From: Algoriphagus hitonicola
GTDB taxonomy: Bacteria; Bacteroidota; Bacteroidia; Cytophagales; Cyclobacteriaceae
Reading direction: 5' to 3'
DNA length: 64,000 bases
Assembly (NCBI RefSeq): GCF_900113375.1
Contig: NZ_FOPC01000012.1
Span: 1 to 64,000, forward strand
Below, piece by piece: positions 4,568-23,997 of the stretch. The notes beneath the pieces were generated by a model. The model searched no databases. It was given only the letters and a program-made list of their open reading frames with translations, and had not been told where the DNA came from. Position 1 is the stretch's first letter; every line of letters starts with the position of its first letter. A program made the translations under genes and the position numbers.

Positions 4568-4609
4568 GTACCCAGGCCTGCCTACCGAAGGTAGGGCCGG
4601 AGTCGAACC
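4568..4609 (-). pseudogene. Displaced tRNA-Leu 3' end remnant 2 containing the outer att core
   Basis: GTACCCAG (4568-4575) and GCCGGAGTCGAACC (4596-4609) match the acceptor end and T-arm of the intact tRNA-Leu. They are separated by a 20-bp hairpin-forming insert (4576-4595, CCTGCC...GGTAGG). The 14-bp block recurs exactly at 23922-23935 in the functional tRNA. This is what is expected of the att site at the tRNA-distal end of an element integrated into a tRNA 3' end. Confidence 0.75.
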
Positions 4610-4747
4610 TATTGAATTTTCTAACTTTTTATTCGTTTAAAATTCTTCCAAAATAGTCTTTAAATCAATTAAATGGATGAATTAAAGCTGTTTTTCAAGA
4701 TTGGATTAGTAGTATAAGATAGTATACGATCCAAAGAAATCCACAGA

Positions 4748-4790
4748 ATGTTTGCCAATAGTTTGCCAAAAATATAAATTTGGCAAACAT
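4748..4790. promoter_or_regulatory. Palindromic repeat cluster before the integrase
   Basis: Copy 2 of the 20-bp island repeat (4748-4767) forms a perfect inverted repeat with TGGCAAACAT (4781-4790), pairing with ATGTTTGCCA (4748-4757). A third TTTGCCA word lies between them at 4762-4768. It ends 7 nt before the integrase ATG. It could be an arm-type integrase site, an operator for int autoregulation, or both. Confidence 0.6.
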
Positions 4791-4797
4791 CAATTAA

Positions 4798-6063
4798 ATG
4801 GCGACAATCAAATTTCAGCTAAGGAGCGAGGCAAACAAGGCTGTTCCAATTTACTTTTACCTATCCATGGGAAGAGGTTCGTTTTTTAGAATACGGACAG
4901 GTTTTTCAATTCATCCATCAAACTGGAGTGAAGCCAAAGGTTTTCCCAAGCAGAATGATGAAGCCAATAAGAAGGTGGCAACTAATTTGAAAACGCTTGA
5001 GAAGTATCTGCTTGAATGTATCAATGATGCCCAAGCGAATGGAATCGAAATCAACAATGAGTTTCTGGAACGTAAAACAAACGAGTGTTTCAAGCGGAAA
5101 AAGCAGACAGATATTTCTCTTGTATCCTATCAGGTCCAATACATCATCGACAATGCAGATACTCGAAAGATTCCAGGAAAAAGTAAGATCGGGTTGGCCG
5201 CTAATACAGTCAAGAATTACCAAACCTTCAAACAAATCATTCTTGACTTTGAAAAGTATATCAGGAAGCCCTTTAGGTTTGGAGACTTGTCTCCGGAAAT
5301 GGTAGAGAAGTTTAAAAAATGGTTGCTGAAGGAGAAAGGATACTCAGTCAATCATGCAGGGAAGTCATTAGCATTCCTGAAAAGCATTTCCAAGGATGCA
5401 GAAAAGCTTGGAGTCACGGTGCATCCCAATGCTATGAAAATTGAATCATTCACCGAATCAAATGAGGATAGGAATATCGTCACCCTTTCACCGGATGAAT
5501 TAAAGCAAATTGAAGAAGCCGAATTGAAAAGAGAAGCATTGATCAATGCCAGAAAGTGGCTTTTACTTGGCTGTGAATTGGGTCAGAGAGGAGAGGATTT
5601 ACTAAAAATCAAACCCTCCGATATTCGGAGTATACCAGAGGGACAATTTATAGATGTGAATCAGCAGAAAGGTAAAAAGCATGTTTCTGTACCAGTTACT
5701 CCCAGAGCAAAGCAAATTTTGGATCAAGGGTTTCCAGAACGAATTGCCTTGCAGAACCTAAACGACTATATCAAAGAAGTGGCCAAAGCTGCCAACCTTA
5801 ATGAGCTAATCGAGGGGAAGAAGTACGACAAGGACACCAAACGCAAGGTGTTTGGGAAATACCCCAAACATGATCTGATAACTACCCATACCTGCCGTAG
5901 GTCCTTTTCCACCAACTACTACAAGAAAATCCCGACAACTGTGATCATGGGAATCACTGGGCATGTCAAGGAAAGCACCTTCCTTCAATACATTGGAAAG
6001 CCAAAGGATAAGGATGAGAATGCAAAGTTATTTTTGAAATATATTGGGACAAAAGTTTATTGA
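4798..6063 (+). CDS. int: Tyrosine recombinase / integrase of the tRNA-Leu island
   Basis: This is a 421-residue phage-type integrase. An N-terminal arm-binding region (to about residue 90) and a SAM-like core-binding domain (about 105-225) precede the catalytic domain. The catalytic set is visible: R264 (GQRGED), a basic QQKGKKHVSVPV strand, H364 and R367 in HTCRR, H389 in TGHVKE and nucleophile Y398 in FLQYIG. It would cut and join DNA at the tRNA-Leu 3' end to integrate and excise the island. Its ATG lies just after the repeat cluster at 4748-4790, the usual place beside the tRNA-distal att site. The gene looks intact. Confidence 0.95.
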   Translation: MATIKFQLRSEANKAVPIYFYLSMGRGSFFRIRTGFSIHPSNWSEAKGFPKQNDEANKKVATNLKTLEKYLLECINDAQANGIEINNEFLERKTNECFKRKKQTDISLVSYQVQYIIDNADTRKIPGKSKIGLAANTVKNYQTFKQIILDFEKYIRKPFRFGDLSPEMVEKFKKWLLKEKGYSVNHAGKSLAFLKSISKDAEKLGVTVHPNAMKIESFTESNEDRNIVTLSPDELKQIEEAELKREALINARKWLLLGCELGQRGEDLLKIKPSDIRSIPEGQFIDVNQQKGKKHVSVPVTPRAKQILDQGFPERIALQNLNDYIKEVAKAANLNELIEGKKYDKDTKRKVFGKYPKHDLITTHTCRRSFSTNYYKKIPTTVIMGITGHVKESTFLQYIGKPKDKDENAKLFLKYIGTKVY

Positions 6064-6116
6064 TAAATTCAGATTTTTATTTAAACTCGAATAATGATTC
6101 TAGTGAATTAAAAAGT

Positions 6117-6203
6117 ATGCAACACAATTTATCAGGCCTTGCCAAAAAGGAGAGCGAATTCCTGATCAATGCCTCTGAGAATATGAAAGAGTGTATTTTA
6201 TGA
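6117..6203 (+). CDS. Possible 28-residue leader peptide
   Basis: A short reading frame (MQHNLSGLAKKESEFLINAS...) runs from ATG 6117 to TGA 6203. Its stop overlaps the ATG of the next frame (ATGA at 6200-6203), the usual sign of translational coupling. A direct duplication ATGAAAGAGTGTATTT (6183-6198 and 6200-6215) spans the junction, so the pair may also be a slippage product of one broken gene. Low confidence. Confidence 0.25.
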   Translation: MQHNLSGLAKKESEFLINASENMKECIL

Positions 6204-6511
6204 AAGAGTGTATTTATAGGGTCCAATATTGGTTCGAGGATAAATGGTGGAGGATTTTCGTCTTATCGAATTATTCAAAAGACGAAAGGGTTCAATACAC
6301 CTTAGAGCAAGTCGGTACAGCCTGTAGAGTCATTTCAATTGGGACAGATGACAAAGGGGGATTTTCCATCGCACTCTTTATTTGCTATCATATTTATGAG
6401 AAAATCGGGCATTTCTTTCCTTCAATACTACATCGGAGGCTTTTTGACTTCACGCCAGAGTCCTGTGCTCATCATGTTCGGATTAGCAATTTTTCAAAGG
6501 ACTGCGATTAA
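6200..6511 (+). CDS. Small hypothetical protein
   Basis: This is a frame of about 103 residues from ATG 6200 (MKECIYRVQYWFEDKWWRIF...). The first 60 residues are rich in aromatics and look protein-like. The C-terminal part (SILHRRLFDFTPESCAHH) looks less so, and may be read-through into non-coding DNA after a lost stop or frameshift. I recognise no family. It lies between the integrase and an AT-rich unknown gene, in a stretch with no better candidate. It is real or a remnant with about equal likelihood. Confidence 0.35.
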   Translation: MKECIYRVQYWFEDKWWRIFVLSNYSKDERVQYTLEQVGTACRVISIGTDDKGGFSIALFICYHIYEKIGHFFPSILHRRLFDFTPESCAHHVRISNFSKDCD

Positions 6512-6670
6512 TATTTGAAAGTCGTCCTAGAAGAAAGAGAACAGGGGATAAGATTCCCTTCCGTTTCAGTGATTTATTTTGAAAGTTAGTGCCACAATAC
6601 TGATTTACATTACACTAATAAGCCAAAGGATGGAGATGGGTTATTTCTCTCTATTTTAAAATAAAAATTT

Positions 6671-7849
6671 ATGAAAAAAATATATGTAAAAATTGGTTTA
6701 CTTCCAATGGATAATAACTGTGAAATTCATTTTTTTAAAAGGTTTGAGTTTGGGGATGAGAATTTTTTTAAACCTTCTTGGGATAGAATTGATACAGCCG
6801 GATCCCGATTTTTAAAAGTTTGGGATTTAAAAGCTATTAATGAAATTCATGTTTTAGATTATATTGATTTATTTAACTTAAAGAAAATCCGAAAGTTTGG
6901 AGCTTTGGAAATGGAAGTGAGAAGAAAAATAAATGATTCATTTGAGAGAATAAATAAGAGTTACTCAGGTATAATTAGTGAATTGGAAAACGGAGTAAAA
7001 AACTTAAGTCCTAGAGACGTTTTTTTTCAAAAATATAAATTGGACTATAGTGATTCTGATAAATTATCAGAAGTTGCTTTATTGGATTTTTTTTTAGTTT
7101 ATCATTTGTTGGACCTCTCAGATTTAATTATCATTCCTTCACATAGTAATTTGATTTTCCCCGTAAAAAAATCTGAGTGGAATGAATTTCATCATTATTT
7201 AAAGGCTAATATTGATAAAATTTCAAGAGTTGGAGCCTTTGTTGTTGATCAAGACAATATTGATTCATTTCTTTCATTCGATAATTGGTCCTGTGGAAAT
7301 GTGAAAGTAGTTCAATATTTGAATTTTAAAGTACAAGAAAAATTTTTGGTCCCAGTTAGATTAGTAGATCTAATGAAATTCTCTCCGTCGTTTAGTTATT
7401 TTGTTTCAAATAATTGTAAGTCTGGATTTTTAGATTGGGAACATTTGTCTGCGGTATTATTTAGAAATAATCCATGGCGTGATGAGATTTTCAAAATTTA
7501 TAATGATGAAAAAGAAATTTTCGGATACGAACTAAAAAATATTCAAGGTAATATTGTGGATAAATCATTTTTAAATTATTTAGACACCATAGTTTTACAA
7601 TTGCAAAAAAGTGGAGCTGAAAGTGTATATAAAGATAGTTCTTTGCTTCAAATCCCATTTTATGAATTATATAGATATGTTTCTATTGATTTAGAAGAAA
7701 AGTTAAAAATGAAAAATGATAAGGAGGAAGACGATTATGAAGAACGTTTTTTGGAAAATAAATATCTTTCGAATGAAAAAGATGAAATTCGAGATGGGTT
7801 GGATGATTTGTTTTCGGCTGATCCTGATTGGTATTGGAACATTGATTAA
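6671..7849 (+). CDS. Large unknown protein, AT-rich, defence-island cargo
   Basis: This is a 392-residue soluble protein starting MKKIYVKIGLLPM. It has no signal peptide, no membrane helix and no motif I can name. The centre is hydrophobic and globular (LDFFLVYHLLDLSDLIIIP). The last 60 residues are very acidic (KEEDDYEERFLENK, GLDDLFSADPDWYWNID), a possible partner- or DNA-mimic tail. Base composition is clearly more AT-rich than the methyltransferase genes that follow, with many AAA/TTT codons, suggesting separate acquisition. It stands alone, with 159 nt before and 172 nt after. It could be a single-gene defence or toxin protein, but there is no positive evidence beyond location. Confidence 0.8.
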   Translation: MKKIYVKIGLLPMDNNCEIHFFKRFEFGDENFFKPSWDRIDTAGSRFLKVWDLKAINEIHVLDYIDLFNLKKIRKFGALEMEVRRKINDSFERINKSYSGIISELENGVKNLSPRDVFFQKYKLDYSDSDKLSEVALLDFFLVYHLLDLSDLIIIPSHSNLIFPVKKSEWNEFHHYLKANIDKISRVGAFVVDQDNIDSFLSFDNWSCGNVKVVQYLNFKVQEKFLVPVRLVDLMKFSPSFSYFVSNNCKSGFLDWEHLSAVLFRNNPWRDEIFKIYNDEKEIFGYELKNIQGNIVDKSFLNYLDTIVLQLQKSGAESVYKDSSLLQIPFYELYRYVSIDLEEKLKMKNDKEEDDYEERFLENKYLSNEKDEIRDGLDDLFSADPDWYWNID

Positions 7850-8021: not shown

Positions 8022-8612
8022 ATGGAAAAGAAAAAACATATCCAGCTAACCAAGGAGCAAATAGACAGTATTGAATACAGACCATTGGAAGCGTCTAAAT
8101 TCTTGGAGGTGCTTTTTTTACATGAGCTTGGAGGTATAATTGGGAGTTTCGGAAATGCATACCTGAAATTTCTATTGATTATTCAGGGAGTAGAATTTTT
8201 AGGAGCCTGTGAGGATGATAAACCCTTTGAACTTTACGAAAGAAAATTGCCAAAAGACCGATTTAACAAGGGCTTGAGAAATTTTAGGAAAGAATACCAC
8301 CCATTTACTGGAGAAGGAAGTAGCATCAAGTTTTTTGAAGATTTGAGAAGTCCAATGGTTCACCAGTTTCGGCCAAATCAATCCAAATTTAGGCTTTCTG
8401 AAAGAACTTCATCAGACTTTCAGGGCGAATTGCATCTTGCTTTTGACCACCAAGGTAGATTGATTTTGGTATTAGAGGATTTTTATGAAGATTTTGCAGA
8501 TGCGGTTAGATCAGTCATGCGAAAAATTGAATTGGGGGAATTGAATGCTTCAAAGCTGACCGATCCTCATATTACCGTCGAATCCATCCGAGATTTGATA
8601 CAAACTTCCTGA
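8022..8612 (+). CDS. Hypothetical helical protein with an R-x4-H motif (HEPN-like?)
   Basis: This is a 196-residue protein, mostly helical. A hydrophobic helix (YLKFLLIIQGVEFLGAC) is followed by charged segments, then EDLRSPMVHQFRP. R109 and H114 there form the R-x4-H spacing of HEPN RNases, set after a helix as in that fold. No antitoxin-like partner of the MNT type is adjacent; the next gene, 20 nt downstream, is the large methyltransferase. The HEPN idea is inference from one short motif and may be wrong. The gene may be an accessory of the neighbouring RM system or an independent toxin-like gene. Confidence 0.7.
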   Translation: MEKKKHIQLTKEQIDSIEYRPLEASKFLEVLFLHELGGIIGSFGNAYLKFLLIIQGVEFLGACEDDKPFELYERKLPKDRFNKGLRNFRKEYHPFTGEGSSIKFFEDLRSPMVHQFRPNQSKFRLSERTSSDFQGELHLAFDHQGRLILVLEDFYEDFADAVRSVMRKIELGELNASKLTDPHITVESIRDLIQTS

Positions 8613-8632
8613 AATTTTCCTTATTTTAAGTT

Positions 8633-11407
8633 ATGACCATTACGCAAATCGAGAAAAACCTCCAAAAGCTGATTTCCAATTTTAATCAGGAAACATTCAT
8701 TTTTGACTTGCTTTTGGCCTATGGTACATCCAAGGCTTCGATTGCCCGGCTGCAAAACGGAAATCTCAATCTGTTCAAAGGTCCCGGAGTGGTCAATTGG
8801 AAAAAGAAGGTATTGTTCAAGGAGGTCTTTGAGCAGGATTTGCATCAGGCACTTGCCGACCTGAAGCCTCAAGCCATCCATGACCAACGCTTTGTGATCG
8901 TGACTGATTACAGGCAGTTGGCGGCATTCGATACCAAGACAGCCGATTCACTCGATGCAGAAATCGAGAATCTGCCCAAGCACTTGGATTTCTTTCTTCC
9001 TTGGGCAGGAATGGAAAAGGCTCAATATGCCGAGGAGAATCCCGCAGATGTCAGGGCTGCTGAAAAGATGGCCCGTCTGTACGATGAAATCCGAAAGGAC
9101 AATCCCGATACCGCACCGGAATTTGTCCATGGGCTGAATGTATTCCTTTCCCGATTGTTGTTTTGCTTTTTTGCAGAGGATACCAATATTTTCAAGGAAA
9201 AGCAATTTACAGGGGCCATTGCCTCACATACGCAGGCAGACGGGACCGATCTGCATGTGTATTTGGACCGACTGTTTGAGGTGCTGAATACACCCAAAGA
9301 GCAGCGCAAAGACCTTCCCCACTACCTGAATGATTTTCCCTATGTCAACGGTGGTCTGTTTAGGCACAAGCATCCCTCTCCGGTATTTACACGGAGATCC
9401 AGGCAGGTAATCATTGATAGCGGGGAACTCGACTGGAGTGCTATCAATCCGGATATTTTCGGATCGATGATTCAGGCGGTGATCACACCTGAGCACCGTG
9501 GAGGCTTGGGGATGCACTATACCTCCGTGCCCAATATCATGAAGGTGATTGAGCCCCTGTTTCTGAATGAACTCTATGAGGCGTTTGAAGCCGCTAAGGG
9601 CAATCCCAAAAAGCTAAATGAACTCCTGTATCGACTGAGCAAGATTAAAATATTTGATCCCGCTTGCGGTAGTGGAAACTTCCTGATTATAGCATACAAA
9701 GAGCTTCGCAAGCTGGAAATCGCCATTATCTACCATTTGCAGGAACTTCAGCGAATGGCAGCAGGATTCAGCCCCAAGTCGGAGCAGATGAGCTTTATTC
9801 CAAAATCTCAACTGAGCTTGGCTGCATCCTTTCAGGTAGAGCTGTTTTCCAGGATTCATCTATCCCAGTTTTACGGGATCGAGTTGGATGACTTTGCACA
9901 TGAGATTGCTCAATTATCTCTTTGGCTTGCGGAGCATCAGATGAATGTGGAATTCAAAAAGGAGTTTGGTCAGACTTCACCTACTCTTCCGCTTAAAGAA
10001 TCCGGGCATATCGTCCATGGCAATGCCTGTCGAATTGATTGGGAATCGGTTTGCCCTAAAAGTCCTGATTCGGAGATTTATATTTTGGGGAATCCTCCTT
10101 ATTATGGAGCAAGACTTTTAAAGCCAGAACAAAAGGATGACATGGCAAAAGTCTTTGAGAACACGAAAATATCTTTCAATGATCTTGACTACATAACCTG
10201 TTGGTTTTTAAAAGCAAGTTTATTTGTTGAGAATTCAATTTCAGAAGCAGCATTTGTTTCAACGAACTCAATTTGTCAGGGATCACAGGTAGCTGTTCTT
10301 TGGCCTTTTATTTTAAGGCATTCGGAAATACGATTCGCATACCAGCCTTTCAAATGGGCGAATAATGCCAAAAATCAAGCAGGAGTTACCGTAATCATTC
10401 TTGGATTGGGATCAACCAGTTCTCAAAAGAAAATTATTTTCACTAATGAATTGAAAATACCTACTTCGGTAATTTCACCTTATTTGGTACAGGGCTCCAC
10501 AATTTTAGTATTGAGTAGAAGCAATCCCCTTTCAAATCTTCCAAAAATTGTTTTCGGAAGTATGCCTAATGATGGAGGACATTTGATTTTTAACACAGAA
10601 GAAGAGCTTGAAGAAGCTGTTGAAAAGGATTCTAGAATTAAAAAGTTTACTAAGACGATGTATGGAGGACAAGATTTTTTGTATGGGAAAAAAAGATATT
10701 GTTTATGGATTGAATCAGATCAATTTGCAGAGGCAATGGAAATTAAATCCATTGAAGAACGGATAAAAAAGGTGGAAAAATATCGACTAGAAAGTAAAAG
10801 AGAAGCAACAAGAAAATTGTCTAATATTCCTTATAGGTTTGGAGAAGTAAGGCATAAGGAATCAAGTTTTATTGTAATTCCAGCCACTTCTTCGGAAGGC
10901 CGTGAGTACATTCCTATGGGTTTTCTTCCAAAAGGGACTGTGGTAAATAATTCTACCCAAGCAATTTATAACGCTGAAGCTTTCCATTTGGGAATTATCA
11001 CTTCAAGAATCCATTTGATTTGGGTTAACACTGTTTCTGGAAGATTAGAGTCTAGGATCAGGTATTCTGCTGAACTTTCATATAATACATTCCCATTTCC
11101 TGAAATCACAAAGGAACGAAAAGAGGAAATAAATCGAAGTGTTTTAAGAATCCTTGAAGAACGAGAAAAGCACCCTGAGAAAACACTAGCCGAGCTATAT
11201 GATCCCGATAAAATGCCTGCCGGACTTCGTGCAGCGCACCAAGCCAATGATGAGGTGATCGAGCGATGCTACCGCAGTAAGCCCTTTGAGTCCGATGAGG
11301 AACGCCTAGAGCACCTGTTTAAGATGTATGAAAAGATGATTGCCGAGGAGCAGACGAGGGGGAGTTTGTTTGAGAAGGTAAAGAAAGCGTCCAAAAATAA
11401 GAAGTAA
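8633..11407 (+). CDS. MmeI/YeeA-like DNA adenine methyltransferase with nuclease-degenerate N-terminus
   Basis: This is a 924-residue protein built like the MmeI/DnmA(YeeA) family: N-terminal domain, helical spacer (about 150-330), methyltransferase domain, then a target-recognition and C-terminal region. SAM motif I is DPACGSGNF at residue 342 and catalytic motif IV is NPPY at 487-490. The N-terminal region where MmeI has its D...ExK nuclease reads LNLFKGPGVVNWKKKVLFKE with no ExK, so cleavage is probably supplied by other subunits. The helicase (13750) and GIY-YIG protein (15680) fit this, as in the yeeA-yeeB-yeeC set of Bacillus subtilis. The recognition part (about residues 530-760) is more AT-rich than the rest, as is common for swapped TRDs. 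Confidence 0.85.
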   Translation: MTITQIEKNLQKLISNFNQETFIFDLLLAYGTSKASIARLQNGNLNLFKGPGVVNWKKKVLFKEVFEQDLHQALADLKPQAIHDQRFVIVTDYRQLAAFDTKTADSLDAEIENLPKHLDFFLPWAGMEKAQYAEENPADVRAAEKMARLYDEIRKDNPDTAPEFVHGLNVFLSRLLFCFFAEDTNIFKEKQFTGAIASHTQADGTDLHVYLDRLFEVLNTPKEQRKDLPHYLNDFPYVNGGLFRHKHPSPVFTRRSRQVIIDSGELDWSAINPDIFGSMIQAVITPEHRGGLGMHYTSVPNIMKVIEPLFLNELYEAFEAAKGNPKKLNELLYRLSKIKIFDPACGSGNFLIIAYKELRKLEIAIIYHLQELQRMAAGFSPKSEQMSFIPKSQLSLAASFQVELFSRIHLSQFYGIELDDFAHEIAQLSLWLAEHQMNVEFKKEFGQTSPTLPLKESGHIVHGNACRIDWESVCPKSPDSEIYILGNPPYYGARLLKPEQKDDMAKVFENTKISFNDLDYITCWFLKASLFVENSISEAAFVSTNSICQGSQVAVLWPFILRHSEIRFAYQPFKWANNAKNQAGVTVIILGLGSTSSQKKIIFTNELKIPTSVISPYLVQGSTILVLSRSNPLSNLPKIVFGSMPNDGGHLIFNTEEELEEAVEKDSRIKKFTKTMYGGQDFLYGKKRYCLWIESDQFAEAMEIKSIEERIKKVEKYRLESKREATRKLSNIPYRFGEVRHKESSFIVIPATSSEGREYIPMGFLPKGTVVNNSTQAIYNAEAFHLGIITSRIHLIWVNTVSGRLESRIRYSAELSYNTFPFPEITKERKEEINRSVLRILEEREKHPEKTLAELYDPDKMPAGLRAAHQANDEVIERCYRSKPFESDEERLEHLFKMYEKMIAEEQTRGSLFEKVKKASKNKK

Positions 11408-11411: not shown

Positions 11412-11927
11412 ATGGAATCAGTTCAAACCAAAATATTAAAGGATCTTTTTGAATCACAGATTGGGATGATTCCGATCAATGATAGCATTTCAAATGAGGA
11501 GTTTCAGATATTGAGAAAGCTTGAGTCTTTTGGGGTTTTGAGAAAGGAAAAAGGATCATACAAGCCTGATACGAGATTTTATAAATACGGGAAGACCCTC
11601 ATGGCGCAAGATGTTCCGGTTGAGGAGTTTGATTTTGAATACCAACCCAAACCTCTTCAAGTATTCAATAATACGTTCCATGCTCACAATATTGGTCAAG
11701 TAAACCAAGGTTCCGTTAATTACAGCTTTGATCAGATCAATATTAAAATTGTAAAGGAATCCTTAGAGGCAGCCTTGACTCCAGAGCAATTAAAAGAGGT
11801 AATGGAAGCATTAAAACAGAATGGAAAACCGGGAGTAAAGCAGAAATTAAAAAGCTTCGGTGGAGATGTTTTGGCTAATGTGGTTGCTGGTATTCTTTCT
11901 AATCCCTTGCTTTATGGAAGGATGTGA
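11412..11927 (+). CDS. Hypothetical protein in the methyltransferase locus
   Basis: This is a 171-residue protein starting 4 nt after the methyltransferase stop, so almost certainly translated from the same message. The N-terminal half looks like a winged-helix (FQILRKLESFGVLRKEKGSYK). A low-complexity bridge follows (HAHNIGQVNQGSVNYSF), then an amphipathic helix pair (LTPEQLKEVMEALKQN) and a glycine-rich hydrophobic C-terminus (GGDVLANVVAGILSNP). The QVNQGS bridge is reminiscent of linkers between small adaptor domains in defence loci. I cannot name the family. It may regulate or tether the RM complex. Confidence 0.75.
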   Translation: MESVQTKILKDLFESQIGMIPINDSISNEEFQILRKLESFGVLRKEKGSYKPDTRFYKYGKTLMAQDVPVEEFDFEYQPKPLQVFNNTFHAHNIGQVNQGSVNYSFDQINIKIVKESLEAALTPEQLKEVMEALKQNGKPGVKQKLKSFGGDVLANVVAGILSNPLLYGRM

Positions 11928-15687: not shown

Positions 15688-16912
15688 GGACCGTGTTTTA
15701 AATGAGATTTTTGAAAATGATCCGTTCGGGTTATTGGCGACCAAACCTAAATCCTATTCGACTCGGACACCGGATGAGCGTATGAAATCATCTTTTGATG
15801 AGATTAATCAATTCTACAAAACAAACGGGCGAGAACCCTTGCCCAACACCAGTGACATTTCAGAATATCAATTGTATTTGAGGTTGAAGGGATTCAGGGG
15901 TGATCCTGACAAAGCTAATATGCTACGTGATTTGGATGAATTTGAATTGCTGAAAGAGCCAAGTGGATTTGTTGCAGAGCCAAAAGAAAACTATTTCAAA
16001 CCAAAGAAGATTGAGTCCATTGATGATATTTTCTCAGGTGATCAATTAGGCTTGTTAGATGATGATTTGGGGCTGTTTGAGTTCAAACATACTCCGAAAG
16101 ATTATGATAGAGCGCAGGCAGATTTTGTTGCACAGCGCCGACCTTGCAAGAATTTCGATCAGTATGAAGCAATTTTTAAAGCCGTGCAGCAGGAGCTTTC
16201 ACAAGGAAAAAGGAAGCTGATTCCCTTCAAGCAAGACAATCTGAGAGCAGGTGATTTTTATGTCAACAATGGTGTTTTGCTGTACCTGGAGAATGTGAAT
16301 TTAGATGAAGACGTGCAGAAATTCAAAAGTGGTTCAAGACAAAGAAAAGATGGAAGGACCCGGACCATATTTGAAAACGGTACCGAATCGAACATGCTCT
16401 ATCGGTCCCTTTACAAAGTCTTATTGATGAATGGCAAGGCTGTCACACAGAATTTCGAGAAGGTTAATGAGGGATTTGCAGAAACATTTGGCCAAATCTC
16501 AGAGGAAGATGAAGAAGCTGGATACATCTATGTGTTGAAATCCCAAAGTCAGGATAAGCAAATCCAATCCATCAGCAATCTGTACAAAATCGGGTATTCC
16601 AAAGTTGATATTGAAGACAGAATCAAGAATGCGGAGCGTGAGCCTACTTATTTAATGGCGAAAGTGGAGTATATAGCCGGATGGAAATGCTACAATATGA
16701 ATCCCCAGAAGTTCGAGCAGTTGATTCATACCTTCTTTGGAACCTCTTGTTTAAACATAGATATATTTGACGAGCGAGGACAGCGACACACCCCTCGGGA
16801 ATGGTTCATTGCACCTCTAGCTGTGATCGAACAAGCCATTGAATTAATCATTAATGGGAAAATTGTAAATTACAGGTATGATGGGGAGAGTGAAATGATT
16901 GTGAGGAGGTGA
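15680..16912 (+). CDS. GIY-YIG (T5orf172-type) nuclease protein, RM subunit
   Basis: This is a 410-residue protein. The N-terminal two thirds is charged with no clear motif, probably an interaction domain. The C-terminal third is a GIY-YIG domain of the T5orf172/MUG113 kind: GYIYVLKS at 281-288, LYKIGYS at 301-307, an arginine in the helix IEDRIKNAE near 313, and a late acidic and basic segment ending PREWFIAP. It overlaps the helicase gene by 8 nt. It is the best candidate for the cleaving subunit, since the methyltransferase lacks a recognisable nuclease site. This mirrors the yeeC position in B. subtilis. Single-strand nicking is also possible. Confidence 0.85.
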   Translation: MDKDRVLNEIFENDPFGLLATKPKSYSTRTPDERMKSSFDEINQFYKTNGREPLPNTSDISEYQLYLRLKGFRGDPDKANMLRDLDEFELLKEPSGFVAEPKENYFKPKKIESIDDIFSGDQLGLLDDDLGLFEFKHTPKDYDRAQADFVAQRRPCKNFDQYEAIFKAVQQELSQGKRKLIPFKQDNLRAGDFYVNNGVLLYLENVNLDEDVQKFKSGSRQRKDGRTRTIFENGTESNMLYRSLYKVLLMNGKAVTQNFEKVNEGFAETFGQISEEDEEAGYIYVLKSQSQDKQIQSISNLYKIGYSKVDIEDRIKNAEREPTYLMAKVEYIAGWKCYNMNPQKFEQLIHTFFGTSCLNIDIFDERGQRHTPREWFIAPLAVIEQAIELIINGKIVNYRYDGESEMIVRR

Positions 16913-16972: not shown

Positions 16973-17776
16973 GTGGCTGATTTTTCTAGAAAAGAAATAC
17001 AAAAGTTAATTGTCTCTCCTAGTGGAATAATTAATCTAGCAGGTGCAAATTTGTCTGGCATAGACTTATCAAAACTCTGGTTAAAAAATTTAATGTTTTT
17101 CAAAGGCAATTTATCAAAGATAAACCTTTCAGAATCTAGGCTTCATGAAGCTGATATGCAATGGGCCATTTTGGAAAATGCTAATTTAGAAAAGACCGAT
17201 TTATTGAATAGCTATTTTTTTAGGACTAAATTAGACCATGCTAATTTATCTCAGTCAACTATCCGGAATACAGATTTTTCATTTTCGTCGTTAAGGAATT
17301 CCATATTAAATGGTGCAAAAATCACCTCTTCTGACTTTGAAGATGCTAATATTTATGAAGCAAAGTTGCAGAAAGTCATTTTAATTAACTCTAGTTTCGA
17401 GCGAGCTAATCTAAATGGTGTAAATCTATCCTTTTCTTACCTAGATTATATCAATTTTGAAAAAGCCATATTAACAGATTCAAATCTAGAAGGTATTAAT
17501 ATCAAAAGTGGGAGCTTTATAGATTCTGATCTTTCTTGGTCAAATTTTAGAAACGCATCAATTAAATCTTCAGATTTTCGATTTTCAAATATCGAAGGAG
17601 TAGATTTTTCAGGATCAAAGGTGGAAGGAGTAGATTTTTTTGGATCTAATCTTACACATTCAAATTTCGAAGGAGCAATTATTAGAAATTCTAGCTTTCA
17701 AGGTGCTAAAACAGATTACATTTCTTTCCAGAGAGCAACTTTGCAGGATGTAAGACTTGACCAAAACTGGAATTAA
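16973..17776 (+). CDS. Pentapeptide-repeat protein
   Basis: This is a 267-residue protein made almost entirely of pentapeptide repeats of the A(N/D)LXX type (AGANLSGIDLS, ENANLEKTDLL, FERANLNGVNLS, NFEGAIIRNSSF). It should fold as a right-handed quadrilateral beta-helix. GTG at 16973 is the only start giving the full protein. Such proteins can mimic DNA (Qnr/MfpA) or serve as scaffolds. A KAP-like NTPase gene starts 45 nt downstream, similarly AT-rich, and the two probably form one unit separate from the GC-richer RM genes to the left. No signal peptide or membrane helix is seen, so a cytosolic role is likely. Confidence 0.9.
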   Translation: MADFSRKEIQKLIVSPSGIINLAGANLSGIDLSKLWLKNLMFFKGNLSKINLSESRLHEADMQWAILENANLEKTDLLNSYFFRTKLDHANLSQSTIRNTDFSFSSLRNSILNGAKITSSDFEDANIYEAKLQKVILINSSFERANLNGVNLSFSYLDYINFEKAILTDSNLEGINIKSGSFIDSDLSWSNFRNASIKSSDFRFSNIEGVDFSGSKVEGVDFFGSNLTHSNFEGAIIRNSSFQGAKTDYISFQRATLQDVRLDQNWN

Positions 17777-17821: not shown

Positions 17822-19720
17822 ATGAGAAATATTTCTGAAAGTATCCTTAATTATTTAAAAATGAAGCACTCTGGAGCAATTCTGATATCTGGAGATTGGG
17901 GTAGTGGAAAATCATATTTTTTGAAAAATAAAGTACTTCCTTATGTTAAGGATCATACAGAGTTTTTACCCGTTATGGTCTCTTTGTATGGTGAAGAAAC
18001 TAGGTCGGGGATTGCAAAAAAAATTATTTATGGGTTCTTAGACTCAAAAGTTGGAATAGGTAAATTCTCATTTCAAAAGATTGCAGGTTGGATTAGTAAA
18101 GCAGCGCCTTATATTCCTAAAATAAACGACTATGTTGATTTGTCGAAGATAATTGATGGATCTGAGGAAAATATTCTTAGGTTTTTACCAAGTGAAAAAG
18201 TTTTAGTTGTATTGGACGATTTGGAGAGGAAAAGCGATAAATTGAGAATGGAGGATTTACTCGGTCTTGTAAATGACTTGGTAGAAAATTCGGAAATTAA
18301 AGTCATTCTAGTTGCAAATAAGAAACAGATAAACCCAGAAGATCTTAAATTTGAAGAAAAAACTATTGAGAGGTCACTTGAGTTTTCACCAGACTTAGTG
18401 GAGGTTTTCGAATCTCTCAATGAAGTTTACAAGAATACCAGCATTGGGGATTTTTTGAACAACCATAAGGATTTAATAATCGAATCATTAATAAAGAAAA
18501 CAGATGATGATTCCTTAAACCGTGAGATTACTGAAGCATTTTCTAACATAAGGACCTTAAAATTTGCCCTGGAGCATTTTAAATTCATTTTTGAAACCTT
18601 TTTCAATGACAGTAAACTTTCGGAAGTTGAAATCAGTCAATTAAAGAATATTTGGATTTTTGTTCTTTCAGTATCTGCGGAATTTAAGTCAAATAGTTTA
18701 ACTCTTCATGACAAAAAGAATATAGACAAACAGGTTACAACTTTTTTAGACCTTGATTTATCTGAAATTTTTGAAGAATCAAAAGATACTGAAGAGCCAA
18801 AAGAGAATTACTCAAAATCATTTAAAGATAAGTACTACAACCGTCTTGGTGAGAAATATATTTTCTATCCAGAGATATATGATTTCCTACTAGGAGGATT
18901 TCCAATTGAGCAAAGTAAGTTTTCCGCAACATTGGAAAATGCATTCCACTTGGAAGAAGGAGAAGTAAAAGAATCTTACATACTCTTAAATGAGGTTTTA
19001 AGGGAACGAATGGATATGTCCTCTCAAGATTTTATCTCAAAATTGAAAAGGTTACTATCCTTAGTAGAAATTGGAGAGTTTGTTGGTCCATTAGATTATA
19101 TCAATATAGCAGCTGTCTCTCTTGAGTATGCAGGTTTTATTGGTTACAATAGAGACGAAATAAAACAGAAAATTGGCGAAGGGCTTAGATTGGGTATGAT
19201 GAAATCAGATTTTGTAGAAAGAGATATAACTACATTAGAAATGGCTTTAGGTGGAAATATGAATGATGAACTCAAAGACCTTGTAGATATCGCAAATTAT
19301 ACATTGAATGAGAGAAAGGTTCAATTGAAACAACAAGAAAGGAATGAAATTATTGCATTATTTAAATCTGATTTTTCTGATTTTGTAAATCAATTTACCG
19401 ATGAAAATAGTGTAGGTGATGGTAAGTACGTGTATAATTCATACCTTGATATTTTAACAAAAGATGAAATTGAGAGCTTTGTAAAAGGTATAAAATGGGA
19501 AGAGACTTGGAAGTTACAGCAACTTATTGATTCACGTTATCTAAGGAGTCACAACGTATTCAATTATTCTAGAGAAGAAATATTCTTAAAGAGACTTAAA
19601 ACAGAGATAAACTCATATTCTGATCAAAATTCGAATATTATATGCCATGAATTTAAAACAAGAATTCTACCCAAGGTAGAAAAAGCGATCGAGAGGTTTA
19701 CCTCACCTAAAATTTTGTAG
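17822..19720 (+). CDS. KAP-like P-loop NTPase
   Basis: This is a 632-residue protein with an N-terminal P-loop ATPase: Walker A GDWGSGKS (residues 24-31), Walker B VLVVLDDLER (D132/D133) and a sensor-like KVILVANKKQ strand. This pattern fits KAP-family NTPases, which include the phage T7 exclusion protein PifA. The usual membrane-helix insertion of many KAP proteins is not obvious. The remaining 430 residues are helical, charged and unassigned, with an effector or sensor role possible. AT-rich like the pentapeptide gene just upstream. A two-gene defence module is a plausible reading, but no neighbour proves it. Confidence 0.8.
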   Translation: MRNISESILNYLKMKHSGAILISGDWGSGKSYFLKNKVLPYVKDHTEFLPVMVSLYGEETRSGIAKKIIYGFLDSKVGIGKFSFQKIAGWISKAAPYIPKINDYVDLSKIIDGSEENILRFLPSEKVLVVLDDLERKSDKLRMEDLLGLVNDLVENSEIKVILVANKKQINPEDLKFEEKTIERSLEFSPDLVEVFESLNEVYKNTSIGDFLNNHKDLIIESLIKKTDDDSLNREITEAFSNIRTLKFALEHFKFIFETFFNDSKLSEVEISQLKNIWIFVLSVSAEFKSNSLTLHDKKNIDKQVTTFLDLDLSEIFEESKDTEEPKENYSKSFKDKYYNRLGEKYIFYPEIYDFLLGGFPIEQSKFSATLENAFHLEEGEVKESYILLNEVLRERMDMSSQDFISKLKRLLSLVEIGEFVGPLDYINIAAVSLEYAGFIGYNRDEIKQKIGEGLRLGMMKSDFVERDITTLEMALGGNMNDELKDLVDIANYTLNERKVQLKQQERNEIIALFKSDFSDFVNQFTDENSVGDGKYVYNSYLDILTKDEIESFVKGIKWEETWKLQQLIDSRYLRSHNVFNYSREEIFLKRLKTEINSYSDQNSNIICHEFKTRILPKVEKAIERFTSPKIL

Positions 19721-19818: not shown

Positions 19819-20268
19819 ATGCGACATCAAATCCAAAATGATAAAGAACACATTGAATTAACTGACAAAGAGTATCGATTTGCAAATTACTACCTCGGTG
19901 AAGCACGGTTCAACGCCACTGAAGCGGCAAAACTTGCAGGTTACAGCGAGCGAACAGCCCGGCAGCAAGGTTCCAGATTGTTGACAAATGTTTACATTGA
20001 AAAGTACATCCAGAAGAAGTCGCAAAGTGTTCTGGACAAAATGGGTATAACCCAGGAAAGGATTCTAGCAGAGTTTGCCAAAATTGCTTTTGCAAATGTG
20101 ACAGATTTGTTTGAAGGTGATTGGCAATTAAAAAGTCAATCCGATATCCCAAAAGGGAGTTTATCAGCCGTCAAAAATCTGATGAAAACCGAAACAGGAG
20201 TAAAAGTAGAAATGCATGATAAATTAGGTGCTTTGTTAAAACTTTGGGAGTTAGTGAAGGATAGGTGA
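19819..20268 (+). CDS. terS: Phage terminase small subunit-like protein (orphan)
   Basis: From ATG 19819 this gives 149 residues. A longer frame opens at 19759, but the domain begins after 19850. The Terminase_2 signature is present: LTDKEYRFANYYLGEARFN, then the HTH ATEAAKLAGYSERTARQQGSRLL and KMGITQERILAEFAKIAFAN. TerS recognises packaging sites on phage DNA. No large terminase, portal or capsid gene exists in the island. An orphan TerS beside a Rep-like gene and HTH regulator is the pattern of phage-inducible islands, which redirect a helper phage's packaging. It could instead be a decayed prophage remnant. Confidence 0.85.
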   Translation: MRHQIQNDKEHIELTDKEYRFANYYLGEARFNATEAAKLAGYSERTARQQGSRLLTNVYIEKYIQKKSQSVLDKMGITQERILAEFAKIAFANVTDLFEGDWQLKSQSDIPKGSLSAVKNLMKTETGVKVEMHDKLGALLKLWELVKDR

Positions 20269-20278
20269 TTTTTGAGCG

Positions 20279-21229
20279 ATGCAAGAAAAGTATGTAAACA
20301 AGTTCTTGGAAGAGGTTGTAAGTTTTGAAGGCACTATTTCGCCTGAAAAAGTAGACGAACTGAAAGCAAAAGCATCTAACTTTATTGATGCTATTTGTCA
20401 AAAAAGGCTGATTGTTCATGATCCAGGGACATTTGCAATGCTCTTTATTATTGGTCCAAACCCTATTTACTTAAATGATTTTTTTCAATACAAATCAGCA
20501 ATCAAAATGCTGCTATCATTTCTTGAGACAGAGGAATGTTATTTTGAAGTTATTGACAATAGATTGGCCGAAAGGGTGGAATACGTTACGTTGCTAAAGG
20601 TCAACTTGAGAAAATCTTACGAAGTGTTTAACTATTTTTTCAAGCAGGATCAGGAGGAACAAGAACGGATTCTATTCACCATTAAGAATTTGAGATGGAT
20701 GTATTCCAGAGAGGGTATTCTAAAACAAATTGGAGGTCTATTTGAGTCCGTAGAAGAAGAATTATCCTATATCTCCAATTTGCTTCAAGACTTAAAGTCT
20801 GATGCAAATTTCGTCCTCTTTTTCGGAAAAGAGAGAGACATTTTTGAAGCTAAAATAAATCAACTTTTGGCGGAGAAGTCGGCTGAAAAAGCATTACTAT
20901 CTATCCAAGGCAAGATCAAAGAAAACTATGATGAGGTTAATTCCCATCCAGATATTTTTAAGCCAAATGGCTTTCGGCTATTTAATTTTTTGATGAAAAA
21001 TCACCTTACCTCAGGAAAAGGATGGCAATCTGATGTTTCATTTTTCTACAGAGTTATGGAGGAACGAGATCAGTTGATTCATGCTAAGCAAAAAAGATTC
21101 AAAGAATTTCTTGCTGATGAATACCCCTATTTGGAGCCTATGGGAAAATTTAAAGTATGGAATGATATCAATACTGAAAAAAGAAGGCAGGCTTATTTGT
21201 CCGCAAAAAGTGCTATTGGATTAAAATAG
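20279..21229 (+). CDS. Hypothetical helical protein of the island core
   Basis: This is a 316-residue, mostly alpha-helical, charged protein (ELKAKASNFIDAICQ, VEEELSYISNLLQDLKSD) with no signal peptide, membrane helix or catalytic motif that I recognise. It starts 11 nt after terS, so it is probably in the same operon. An operator-like region and the HTH gene follow. Position suggests an island-core function such as interference with a helper phage or replication, but nothing in the sequence shows it. Confidence 0.75.
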   Translation: MQEKYVNKFLEEVVSFEGTISPEKVDELKAKASNFIDAICQKRLIVHDPGTFAMLFIIGPNPIYLNDFFQYKSAIKMLLSFLETEECYFEVIDNRLAERVEYVTLLKVNLRKSYEVFNYFFKQDQEEQERILFTIKNLRWMYSREGILKQIGGLFESVEEELSYISNLLQDLKSDANFVLFFGKERDIFEAKINQLLAEKSAEKALLSIQGKIKENYDEVNSHPDIFKPNGFRLFNFLMKNHLTSGKGWQSDVSFFYRVMEERDQLIHAKQKRFKEFLADEYPYLEPMGKFKVWNDINTEKRRQAYLSAKSAIGLK

Positions 21230-21256
21230 CCCCATTTTTTAAAGCCTCTTAAAAAT

Positions 21257-21283
21257 GGTACGGTTTAGTACCTTGAAGGGTAC
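21257..21283. promoter_or_regulatory. Operator-like GGTAC/GTACC repeats before the HTH gene
   Basis: GGTAC at 21257-21261 and GTACC at 21268-21272 form an inverted repeat, and a further GGTAC lies at 21279-21283. They sit 41-67 nt before the start codon of the HTH protein, a natural place for an autoregulatory operator. Binding is inferred only from position and symmetry. Confidence 0.45.
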
Positions 21284-21323
21284 GCACTTACCAGGAATTT
21301 GCGTGGGTTAAAGGAATATAGCC

Positions 21324-21620
21324 ATGCAAATACAAACAATTCAAATCACTCAACTGACTCCTGATCAATTCGAGGAGACCATCAAGAAAGCGGTTAAATC
21401 CCAATTGGATTTCTTGAGAAAGGAAATCGCTCCGATTCAGCCAAAAGAGGAATACCTAAGTAGGAAAGAGGTCGCTGACCTTCTTAAGATCGAGCTTAGT
21501 ACTTTGCACAATTGGTGCAAGAAAGGGAAACTCAAGCCTTACGGAATCGGGAACCGGGTTTATTTTCTCCGATCAGATATTGAAAAGGCCTTAGTACCAC
21601 TAAATCAGAAGGGGCTATGA
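21324..21620 (+). CDS. HTH_17/AlpA-like regulator or excisionase
   Basis: This is a 98-residue protein. The C-terminal half is a MerR-like winged HTH of the HTH_17/excisionase kind: EYLSRKEVADLLKIELSTLH followed by NWCKKGKLKPYGIGNRVYF and RSDIEKAL. The N-terminal 40 residues form a helix. Small proteins of this type act as excisionases (bending att DNA with the integrase) or as AlpA-like activators in satellites and prophages. It overlaps the next gene by 4 nt (ATGA), so HTH, orf134 and the Rep-like gene form one coupled operon. Confidence 0.85.
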   Translation: MQIQTIQITQLTPDQFEETIKKAVKSQLDFLRKEIAPIQPKEEYLSRKEVADLLKIELSTLHNWCKKGKLKPYGIGNRVYFLRSDIEKALVPLNQKGL

Positions 21621-22021
21621 AAAAGAACGCCTCTCCCTCTATGGTCATTACATACCAAAGATGTAATGCTCACAATGATCAATTCCAATTACAAGATTGG
21701 AAATCTAGTCAGGCTGATGTGCTTTGGGTTGCTTTGGTGCTTGATCGTTTGCCTGCATCCCTTACAGTTAGATTTAGCCAGTTGGCAAATAGAAATGTGG
21801 TTTTTAATTCGAATGAACCGTCTAGGTATTTTCTGACCCAAGTTCCAGAAGAGAGTAAGTTTGAATTCAAGGATGTAATCACCAGTCCATTTCTTCCGGA
21901 GACAGGGCTCCAAGATTTGACCGTTAAATTAAAGTTCAGCTGGGAAAGATTGACTCTCCGGGTTGAATTTCCGGTAGGGCTGGTTCATTTGGAAACCCTA
22001 AAATTGAGAGGGGTATGGTAG
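21617..22021 (+). CDS. Hypothetical protein between HTH and Rep-like genes
   Basis: This is a 134-residue protein that I do not recognise. It has no signal peptide or membrane helix and looks beta-rich (FKDVITSPFLPETGLQDL, VKLKFSWERLTLRVEF). Its start overlaps the HTH stop (ATGA) and its end overlaps the Rep-like start by 7 nt, so it is translated with both. Conservation of the trio in related islands would show whether it belongs to the replication module. Confidence 0.7.
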   Translation: MKKNASPSMVITYQRCNAHNDQFQLQDWKSSQADVLWVALVLDRLPASLTVRFSQLANRNVVFNSNEPSRYFLTQVPEESKFEFKDVITSPFLPETGLQDLTVKLKFSWERLTLRVEFPVGLVHLETLKLRGVW

Positions 22022-22941
22022 ATGATTTGAAAATTGAAATTCCAATTGAACCACCGATGGAATTCAAGGAAAAAGTGACCCATCCCTTTCAATTGAATGG
22101 TTTTGTATTTAGCCCTGATTTCAATAAAAACGGAGATGTGGTTTCCTATTCCGGCCATTGCAGAAATCTGTTTGTAAAAATGATTTCAGGGAAGCTTTTG
22201 GTAATGAACTCTTGGCATAAGTTCTGCTATGGCGAAAACTACTCGGATTTTACTTGGTTGGAATTGCAGGTGTGTATGGAGACTTTGGCAGAGGTATTTG
22301 GAGAAGAATTTTGGAAATCCAGAATAACTAAGCTTACCGTGTCGATTAATCTGTCTATTGATGCGGAGCAGGTCATGTCAAGGTTAATTTCGTTCGATGG
22401 CATTCCAATGGAACCTATGAGGCCAAGAACTAGCCGCTTGGTGTATGGGAAAAGATTCGCCTCAACAAACTACAATGTCAAGGTTTACAATAAAGGATTT
22501 GAGGTAAAAAAGGTAGCGGGAATAGAAATTCCACCTACACTCCGGATTGAGAAAGAAATGAAAATGACCTATTTCCAGAAAAGGAGGAAGAACCCAATTA
22601 GGATTTACACGCCAATGGATCTTTTGGAGCCAAGCTCTTTTGAAATGCTTGCTTTCGAGCTCTACAGGACCGTTTGGTCTTTAGGCTTTTCGTATGGTCT
22701 AGATCCAATGGCAGTTAAAGATTTCCATGATGCGACTGTAGTGGTATTTATGGGTGATCCTGATTACAGGAGGGTGTTGAAGAAAAAGTCGAATTACCGA
22801 ACATACAAGAATCATGAACGGCGGTATGAGGAATTGCGAAATGAGTTCAAGGTTGAGAATTACATTGACGTTTTGAATTCCTTGCTTAAAGAAAAGCTTG
22901 ATTTTTTAAAGCCTGCAAGTTTCGCCCAAAAAACCATGTAA
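22015..22941 (+). CDS. Replication-initiation (Rep_trans/rolling-circle)-like protein
   Basis: This is a 308-residue protein resembling rolling-circle replication initiators of small mobile elements. A strand pattern FWKSRITKLTVSINLS is followed by NYNVKVYNKGFEVK and then TLRIEKEMKM, corresponding to the (V)YNKG...R(I/F)E blocks seen in Rep_trans and phage replication initiation factors. A tyrosine in VYNKG is conserved, but the catalytic residue cannot be assigned by eye. It would nick the excised circle to start replication. The last gene of the coupled HTH-orf134-rep operon; a strong hairpin terminator overlaps its stop. Confidence 0.55.
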   Translation: MVDDLKIEIPIEPPMEFKEKVTHPFQLNGFVFSPDFNKNGDVVSYSGHCRNLFVKMISGKLLVMNSWHKFCYGENYSDFTWLELQVCMETLAEVFGEEFWKSRITKLTVSINLSIDAEQVMSRLISFDGIPMEPMRPRTSRLVYGKRFASTNYNVKVYNKGFEVKKVAGIEIPPTLRIEKEMKMTYFQKRRKNPIRIYTPMDLLEPSSFEMLAFELYRTVWSLGFSYGLDPMAVKDFHDATVVVFMGDPDYRRVLKKKSNYRTYKNHERRYEELRNEFKVENYIDVLNSLLKEKLDFLKPASFAQKTM

Positions 22942-22961
22942 TTTTTGCATGGTTTTTTCTT
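22928..22961 (+). terminator. Intrinsic terminator after the Rep-like gene
   Basis: AAAAAACCATG (22928-22938) pairs with CATGGTTTTTT (22948-22958) around a 9-nt loop, followed by more T-rich sequence. The stop codon of the Rep-like gene lies in the loop. Confidence 0.85.
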
Positions 22962-23103
22962 TTTGAAAGGTTGGCATCAAATACAATGATTACTGCCTCA
23001 GGTGAAAAATGGAAAGGCTTCGAGCTTCAAACATGTAGTATAGTGGAAAAGTAGTGTGTTTTTTACCCGTTTAATCAGTATTCAAAAATTATTACTTTCA
23101 AGT

Positions 23104-23844
23104 ATGAAAAAGGTAGATCAATTTACCGATCAAGAAAAGGTTTTGAAATCAGTATCTTGGATTCTGATCGGTTTAGTAATTTCCATTTTTTTAGTGCCTC
23201 TATATTTGCCAGAAAGGTTCTGCTACGCATCATTGGATTATGCAGTTTTTGTTGGTGGATTAGCAGGGCCTTTAGCATCCTTGGTCGGGTTTATTTATGT
23301 GTACCTGACTTTTCTTGGTCAACAAAGGCAACTGGATGAGCAGAGGGAAAGGCTTGATCGAGATGAGGCATCCAAAGAGTTTTCAGAATACTTGAATCTT
23401 TGGAATGAGTTTAGATCAAAAGTGTTTTACAACTGGGATAAGCAAACAGGATCTAAAGCTTTTGATTCTTTCTGGGGCAATGTAAAAGGATCTGTTCAAA
23501 GCAATTCAGCAACTGAAAAATTTGACATTGATGATCCTAAGGCTTTTCTCCATTCCTTGAAACATCATTTGACAAAAAGTTCTTTCAACAAGGGGTCAGG
23601 CCAATATGAGGATTTCATTAGGATGATTTATCCATTGCTAGAAATTGCAGAAAGAGGGAAGCTAGATAATAAGCTCAAATATCTTGAAAATCTACTCAGT
23701 GATGGTGAGAAAGCAATCTTGGTTTATTCGGCCACTTTTCTGGATCAAAAAGATTTTGGAATAAAGCTCTTCAAGTCCGGTTTCTTCAAAAGTATTCCTG
23801 ACGATTATTTGATTTCGTTAGGCCACAGAAATCTTATTTTTTGA
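23104..23844 (+). CDS. Putative AbiC-like abortive-infection membrane protein (copy 2)
   Basis: From ATG 23104 this gives 246 residues, matching the 245-residue paralogue at 3645-4382; a GTG at 23056 would add an unmatched leader. It has the same layout: two membrane helices (WILIGLVISIFLVPLYL and GGLAGPLASLVGFIYVYLTFL), a coiled QQRQLDEQRERLDRDEASKEF segment and a cytosolic helical domain. The stretch 23599-23785 differs from copy 1 at six positions by my count, while the upstream half is much more diverged. This suggests gene conversion between the islands. Expected role: membrane-linked abortive defence, from the family only. Confidence 0.6.
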   Translation: MKKVDQFTDQEKVLKSVSWILIGLVISIFLVPLYLPERFCYASLDYAVFVGGLAGPLASLVGFIYVYLTFLGQQRQLDEQRERLDRDEASKEFSEYLNLWNEFRSKVFYNWDKQTGSKAFDSFWGNVKGSVQSNSATEKFDIDDPKAFLHSLKHHLTKSSFNKGSGQYEDFIRMIYPLLEIAERGKLDNKLKYLENLLSDGEKAILVYSATFLDQKDFGIKLFKSGFFKSIPDDYLISLGHRNLIF

Positions 23845-23846
23845 AA

Positions 23847-23866
23847 ATGTTTGCCAATAGTTTGCC
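23847..23866 (+). repeat. 20-bp island-end repeat, copy 3
   Basis: This is an exact copy of ATGTTTGCCAATAGTTTGCC, 56 nt inside the tRNA-proximal att core. Together with the copy beside the integrase it gives the island one such site near each end, both in the same orientation. Confidence 0.8.
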
Positions 23867-23878
23867 AAAAAATGGAAA

Positions 23879-23912
23879 AACCCCTTCAAAATTACTTTTG
23901 AGAGGGGTTTTT
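23879..23912. terminator. Bidirectional terminator between the AbiC-like gene and tRNA-Leu
   Basis: Stem AACCCCT/AGGGGTT has an A-run on the left and a T-run on the right. It serves the AbiC-like gene on the + strand and the tRNA on the minus strand. It is near-identical to the terminator at 4412-4448. Confidence 0.85.
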
Positions 23913-23913
23913 G

Positions 23914-23997
23914 TACCCAGAGCCGGAGTCGAACCGGCACGAGTGTAACCTCATTGGTGTTTGAGACCAACGCGTCTACCAATTCCGCCATCTGGGC
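23914..23997 (-). tRNA. tRNA-Leu (anticodon CAA)
   Basis: Reading the minus strand gives an 84-nt class II tRNA. Acceptor GCCCAGA pairs with TCTGGGT, with discriminator A at 23914. The D-arm is present. Anticodon stem TTGGT/ACCAA carries loop CTCAAAC (anticodon CAA at 23961-23963, reading UUG), and a long variable arm and T-arm GCCGG-TTCGACT-CCGGC follow. CCA is not encoded. The island lies immediately beyond its 3' end, and the 14-bp att core (23922-23935) is its T-arm, so the island supplies the 3' part and keeps the tRNA functional. Three broken 5' halves of the same tRNA precede it at 24001-24289. Confidence 0.97.
23922..23935. other. Inner att core (tRNA side)
   Basis: GCCGGAGTCGAACC inside the tRNA-Leu T-arm is identical to 4596-4609. 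The true crossover may be shorter. It is the tRNA-proximal attachment site of the 19.3-kb island. Confidence 0.75.

Follow-up and report, generated by a model that had tools for sequence, protein, structure and literature searches.

Gene content and boundaries of the island

We analyzed a stretch of 64,000 nucleotides from Algoriphagus hitonicola (the window), which is the start of contig C24 (NZ_FOPC01000012.1; G, C and L numbers are our handles for genomes, contigs and loci). It holds about 19.3 kb of mobile DNA integrated in a tRNA-Leu(CAA) gene, an island that is probably a phage satellite. Between its attachment (att) copies, the gene order is an integrase gene (int), about 13 kb of cargo, the small terminase subunit gene terS, a gene for a conserved protein termed X, an HTH_17 gene, orf134, rep and a gene for a putative membrane protein. 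The core features are:

4568..4609, no strand: attL, tRNA-Leu 3'-end core GTACCCAGG...GCCGGAGTCGAACC, interrupted by a palindromic insert of about 20 nt
4747..4792, no strand: putative integrase arm-type sites, TTTGCCAATAGTTTGCC and inverted TTTGGCAAAC, with similar spacing in five aligned islands
4798..6063, +: tyrosine integrase, 421 aa (Pfam Phage_integrase 2.9e-8, SAM-like 7.3e-9)
19819..20268, +: small terminase subunit TerS, 149 aa (Terminase_2, PF03592, 2.3e-33)
20279..21229, +: X, conserved core protein, 316 aa, with homologs in sister islands and no assigned function
21257..21272, no strand: operator-like palindrome GGTACGGTTTAGTACC before the HTH gene (putative role)
21324..21620, +: HTH_17 protein, excisionase/AlpA-like (Pfam 3.6e-14)
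21617..22021, +: orf134, no family, homolog in the Rhodonellum island
22015..22941, +: Rep, 308 aa, predicted pT181-type rolling-circle replication initiator fold
23056..23844, +: 262-aa putative membrane protein, recognized by eye, no family
23846..23871, no strand: putative right arm-type site (repeat match)
23876..23935, no strand: island-borne terminator and attR core within the tRNA-Leu 3' end (repeat and flank comparison)
23913..23997, -: tRNA-Leu(CAA), the integration target (tRNA search)

With one mismatch permitted, the 14-nt att core GCCGGAGTCGAACC has just two copies in the window, at 4596 and 23922 (mean of 0.00 in 100 shuffles), and the stretch common to both ends is longer than this core, with GTACCCAG at 4568 and 23913. 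Copies of TTTGCCAATAGTTTGCC lie at 4387, 4751 and 23850 (shuffle mean 0.02, at most two mismatches). The operator-like palindrome counts for little by itself, as 14 of 100 shuffles matched at up to two mismatches; one type of palindrome precedes the HTH gene in the window and in Rhodonellum, and another in Cyclobacterium and the congener G290.

For an empty-site comparison, the tRNA-PhoH flank was sought in 59 genomes of the genus, including that of A. hitonicola; 58 matched, and 20 loci were fetched. Eight of these are empty, with an ABC-transporter ATPase gene 93-597 bp from the tRNA, one holds a sister island (G290) and one an integrase remnant (G198), the other ten not being screened for phage genes. 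A hairpin terminator directly follows the tRNA in each of the nine empty or similar loci whose flanks were compared, and in two of them (L137 of G286 and L123 of G268) it agrees almost letter for letter with a native-type tRNA terminator found just before attL, at about 4534-4567. The window tRNA-Leu is followed instead by an island-borne terminator, of the type also present in G290 and G198. Judged from sequence, this comparison with empty sites shows the join: an insertion at the 3' end of the tRNA gene that restored the tRNA.

Short palindromic repeats of the CCTGCC...GGCAGG type are inserted in att copies and tRNA fragments (window 4450-4600 and 24040-24260). At 23974-24257, on the promoter side of intact tRNA-Leu, the 5' half of the gene is repeated in 92-bp tandem copies, each with a small palindromic repeat.

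Core proteins

An earlier note on this DNA had placed an integrase at one end of the island and a TerS and an HTH/AlpA-like regulator at the other, and the profile matches listed above bear out all three. TerS scored 116.2 bits against PF03592 (cut-off 26.1), and its start at 19819 is supported by an identical 149-aa database protein. The integrase shares 58-81% identity with those of five other tRNA-Leu islands. A structure model of X (pLDDT 86.9, pTM 0.62) gave no fold match.

The same note had called 22015-22941 Rep-like and proposed a search with Rep_trans. A pT181-type initiator fold (RepD/RepDE, RepSTK1) was predicted across most of the 308 aa; no Pfam, NCBIfam or informative PHROGs model matched the protein, and Rep_trans (PF02486) found nothing up to an E-value of 1 in the window Rep or the nine relatives scanned. 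The description as Rep-like therefore holds and the assignment to Rep_trans by HMM fails, because the fold was found and no family model matched. Residue Y158, a candidate nucleophile, is invariant across all 29 aligned Rep rows. By its predicted fold, the product is a replication protein outside any sequence family. Two distant relatives matched Phage_CRI (PF05144) instead of Rep_trans. Rep relatives occur in 11 of 245 genomes of the family (Cyclobacteriaceae), A. hitonicola included.

Sister islands at tRNA-Leu

The earlier note had proposed a search for the core cassette at tRNA-Leu with varying cargo, and such recurrence was found. Islands with an int gene occupy this tRNA in Rhodonellum psychrophilum, Pararhodonellum marinum, Cyclobacterium sp., Echinicola marina and G290, accompanied by terS, X and the HTH gene in all of these but Pararhodonellum. 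The island of the latter, with a truncated rep, no terS match and a DRT2-like reverse transcriptase, is a decayed copy. Core repeats bound four of the five relatives (19.1, 18.2, 15.5 and 31.8 kb); the E. marina island yielded the core repeat at the tRNA alone and no arm repeat, and the distance from int to the tRNA is about 19.4 kb. Of the arm repeats, Pararhodonellum yielded only the left one. The stretch from attL to int aligns in five islands, that of the window among them, with the arm repeats and the inverted copy included. At the sequence level, these comparisons show an island family recurring across five genera, in which cargo and the replication genes beside TerS are exchanged.

TerS elements and the search for virion genes

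The island had been described as free of large terminase (TerL), capsid and relaxase genes, and models for TerL, portal, capsid and the PF03432 relaxase all failed to match it. Nor did remnants of such packaging or structural genes appear in the sister islands: the portal and capsid models (PF04860 and PF05065) matched none of the six tRNA-Leu islands, and the TerL profile phrog_2, applied to 17 genomes (G050 included, G290 not), matched none of the five tRNA-Leu islands tested. Among the 98 open reading frames (ORFs) of the six islands, TerS was the sole packaging family in the 25 of 55 PHROGs families listed, lysis genes not being searched singly. Pfam scans, which covered 16 of the 17 island ORFs that are at least 90 aa long, gave no relaxase or conjugation family.

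A profile of the island TerS matched 16 of 240 family genomes. A TerL match beside TerS was absent in 12 of the 15 whose context was fetched, and in most of these 12 loci an integrase gene is close by, together with an HTH gene or a replication gene. TerS elements without adjacent TerL span at least six Cyclobacteriaceae genera and differ in cargo and replication genes. Unrelated primase/helicase-type genes replace Rep in sister elements while TerS is kept, and TerS is open in the best match of 12 of 12 genomes. One int-HTH-rep-terS element (G174) has matches to HmaA, HmaB and HmaC adjoining one another. The TerS loci of G125 and G176 look like prophages, the G176 contig ending near TerS. A small element near tRNA-Asp in G076, with int, a BT4734-like/AAA protein, TerS and TerL, may be a further type of satellite or what remains of a phage.

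Across the order (291 genomes), the TerS profile matched 13 genomes at 1e-15 or better, 11 outside the family and 2 within. At the out-of-family TerS genes (10 of 13 places fetched), an ORF of 446-549 aa lies directly downstream in six and one of 421 aa about 1.1 kb on in one, with none in three; G510, from another family of the order, has int-HTH-TerS and no TerL-sized ORF. Among viral contigs with a TerS relative (15 of 21 inspected), an ORF of 413-472 aa with a Walker-A-like motif directly follows TerS in eight. These out-of-family and viral ORFs were judged by size or motif rather than by a TerL model. We also built a TerS tree of 140 rows, including 14 island and 12 phage rows, most of the others having no known context. 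Ten of the 14 island rows fall in two groups (17 rows, 100/99; 62 rows, 93/98; rough bootstraps) free of the 12 phage rows.

Of 17 genomes, three gave portal or capsid matches. Those in G070 and G220 belong to prophages that lie apart from the islands, and those in G176 fall on two unexamined contigs. G070 and G220 both have TerS elements, and their related-looking tailed prophages (L152-L155, on C10 of G070 and C1 of G220) are candidate helpers.

Cargo

The cargo region contains these genes:

6671..7849, +: 392-aa protein, no family (Pfam, PADLOC scans)
8022..8612, +: 196-aa protein, no family (Pfam, PADLOC scans)
8633..11407, +: type IIG (MmeI-like) restriction-methylation enzyme (PADLOC E 4.8e-303)
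11412..11927, +: 171-aa protein, no family above cut-off (Pfam, PADLOC scans)
12061..13506, +: SLFN/AlbA_2 and RecG C-terminal-like protein, candidate defence gene (Pfam; weak PADLOC match)
13750..15687, +: ResIII/DEAD helicase, candidate defence gene (Pfam; weak PADLOC match)
15680..16912, +: T5orf172/MUG113 protein, which we take to be of the GIY-YIG type, candidate defence gene (Pfam; no PADLOC match)
16973..17776, +: pentapeptide-repeat protein, candidate defence gene (Pfam; no PADLOC match)
17822..19720, +: KAP P-loop NTPase, PADLOC candidate system PDC-S49 (1.2e-40)

The earlier note's claim of a defence cargo in mid-island stands for the type IIG and KAP/PDC-S49 genes, both strong in PADLOC; a defence role of the SLFN/AlbA-RecG, ResIII helicase, T5orf172 and pentapeptide genes, with weak matches or none, is only plausible. 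Nine proteins from the cargo of sister elements were tested, from six loci, three of them TerS elements away from tRNA-Leu. Strong matches were to HmaABC, DRT2, a type IIG enzyme and a type I enzyme, and weaker ones to DUF262-like (HEC-05), PLD/Snf2-like and McrB-like proteins (the last two labels partly by eye).

A satellite-like island and its alternatives

Since the island encodes an integrase, a probable copying protein and a TerS but no detected shell genes, it probably travels in the particles of other viruses. We consider it likely to be an integrated phage-satellite-like island with defence cargo, packaged by a helper phage under the direction of its TerS. The integrase, judging by its position, would insert the island into the tRNA-Leu(CAA) 3' end, and the HTH_17/AlpA-like protein would switch on excision. 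The pT181-type initiator would then copy the excised circle by rolling circle, and TerS would recruit a helper tailed phage's large terminase to the island DNA for packing into helper particles. By homology, the type IIG enzyme and the candidate defence NTPase may shield the host and antagonize competing phages. Three results had been named beforehand as speaking against such a satellite life style (a Rep that is no replication protein, a core cassette never recurring as a mobile unit, and large-terminase or structural remnants in sister islands), and none of them was found.

Several observations weigh against this reading. Gram-negative phage-inducible chromosomal islands (PICIs) are typically 12-15 kb in size, according to passages of PMC6092414, compared with 19.3 kb here and 15.5-31.8 kb in relatives. 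Of the 11 genomes in which Rep has relatives, only 5 also show TerS at the locus fetched, and the distant relatives (L022-L026), including the two Phage_CRI matches, sit in int-HTH-rep or int-rep elements without TerS. Packaging concatemers do not usually arise by rolling-circle copying. The A. hitonicola genome had no portal or capsid match and only background phrog_2 matches, one of them inside phoH. In the G070 and G220 prophages, the small gene before TerL was not matched by the TerS profile, and comparison with the island of the same genome gave no match over 34 nt. Missing TerL is not peculiar to the island family, because 3 of the 10 out-of-family TerS loci likewise have no TerL-sized ORF. 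In the tree, the island TerS of G011 groups with phage TerS, and those of Echinicola 20G, E. marina and G078 are not clearly placed. Finally, identity between genera is no higher in the core genes than in phoH: against Cyclobacterium, int shows 64-68% and HTH 74% identity, terS and rep having no blastn match, with phoH at 71%; against Rhodonellum, the values are int 75%, HTH 77%, rep 68% and terS 67%, with phoH at 72%.

An integrative mobilizable element (IME), in which the pT181-type protein serves as relaxase, conjugation is borrowed and TerS is a passenger, is unlikely. Proteins of this fold can act as relaxases in some integrative and conjugative elements of Gram-positive bacteria, int-(HTH)-rep elements without TerS exist, and 7 of the 14 genomes tested carry PF03432 relaxase genes outside the islands. 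However, PF03432 had no match in the A. hitonicola genome or inside an island of the 14 genomes (other relaxase types were not searched), TerS is present in sister elements where Rep is replaced, and it is open in every best match. Similarly improbable is a defence island that depends for its movement on its integrase and general transduction alone and whose TerS was re-used for regulation or phage interference and packages nothing. The defence genes in the cargo fit this idea, as does the failure of the TerL, portal and capsid searches to yield a helper, but it does not account for the repeated occurrence of TerS together with an integrase and a replication gene across most of the 12 genomes. 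A decayed prophage retaining int, rep and terS is very improbable: int and TerS are phage-type genes, yet islands of this reduced layout are found at one tRNA across five genera, with the core complete in four and decayed in Pararhodonellum, the islands lack portal, capsid and, where tested (not in G290), TerL matches, and most island TerS rows lie apart from the 12 sampled phage rows.

Returning to the satellite-like reading, we lean, with somewhat less assurance, toward a previously undescribed satellite family of Bacteroidota: TerS islands with rolling-circle or exchanged primase/helicase modules that would hijack tailed-phage terminases and spread type I/IIG restriction, DRT, Hma and other defence systems among Cyclobacteriaceae from tRNA hotspots. 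If so, satellites would extend to another dominant phylum with a replication logic of their own, and the passage of restriction systems from genus to genus at a single tRNA gene would be easier to understand. The island TerS, X and the attP layout would serve as markers for finding more such elements, and the case can be tested directly in environmental bacteria that grow in culture; two of them, Rhodonellum and Echinicola sp. 20G, contain such an element as well as a tailed prophage.

Comparison with known systems

Like PICIs (Staphylococcus aureus pathogenicity islands and their Gram-negative counterparts), the island has int at one end, att repeats, an AlpA-like regulator, a replication module, a TerS (as in some PICIs) and no structural genes. 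It differs in host phylum, rolling-circle-type Rep, the conserved protein X and larger size; the usual PICI replication genes are of another type. To pT181-family initiators (RepD/RepDE, RepSTK1; Rep_trans), its Rep is alike in predicted fold and unlike in sequence family and integrated setting. P4-like satellites share the integrated, helper-dependent logic and variable defence cargo, but P4 is not known to have the TerS-Rep core; some sister elements encode D5_N/DUF5906 proteins, domain types that occur in P4-like primases. The NBU-type IMEs of Bacteroides likewise have int and a tRNA-Leu target, from which our islands differ by having TerS and no PF03432 relaxase.

According to PMC6092414, PICIs share a conserved arrangement of integrase, replication module and master regulator, lack phage structural and lytic genes, and sit at att sites never used by prophages; the island has int, HTH_17 (a regulator by homology) and, by fold, rep. 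The same source gives packaging through TerS or helper pac/cos sites, with induction by, packaging in and interference with the helper phage; the island has a TerS. Satellites are placed there in Gram-positive cocci and Gram-negative Proteobacteria, and Cyanobacteria and Actinobacteria are also named in portions of PMC11389934, where "Bacteroid" appears twice, both times for NBU elements. In excerpts of a report on lateral transduction in Bacteroides (PMC12946183), the word "satellite" is absent. Our literature searches, mostly at title or listing level, found no Bacteroidota TerS satellite.

An upstream tandem element and cargo transfer

Directly upstream of the island (1-4567) lies a second element, in tandem at the same tRNA and absent from the earlier note:

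213..4448, +: upstream tandem element, with an hsdS-like gene, a 355-aa gene, hsdM, a 245-aa protein gene and a terminator

The hsdS-like gene matches Methylase_S weakly, and its 5' part is broken near an insertion-sequence fragment (by eye) at the contig start. At the end of the element, 3645-4382 is a related copy of the island's membrane-protein gene (23056..23844). Contig C13 carries an ABC ATPase gene, an integrase remnant and hsdR near its end, and synteny suggests that the upstream element is split across C24 and C13. Rhodonellum likewise has hsdS-hsdM genes upstream of its attL. The upstream hsdM shares 88% DNA identity with the Cyclobacterium island gene and hsdR 86%, compared with 71% for phoH. 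Cargo is thus closer between genera than phoH and the core is not, and recent intergeneric transfer is therefore shown for the cargo and not for the core.

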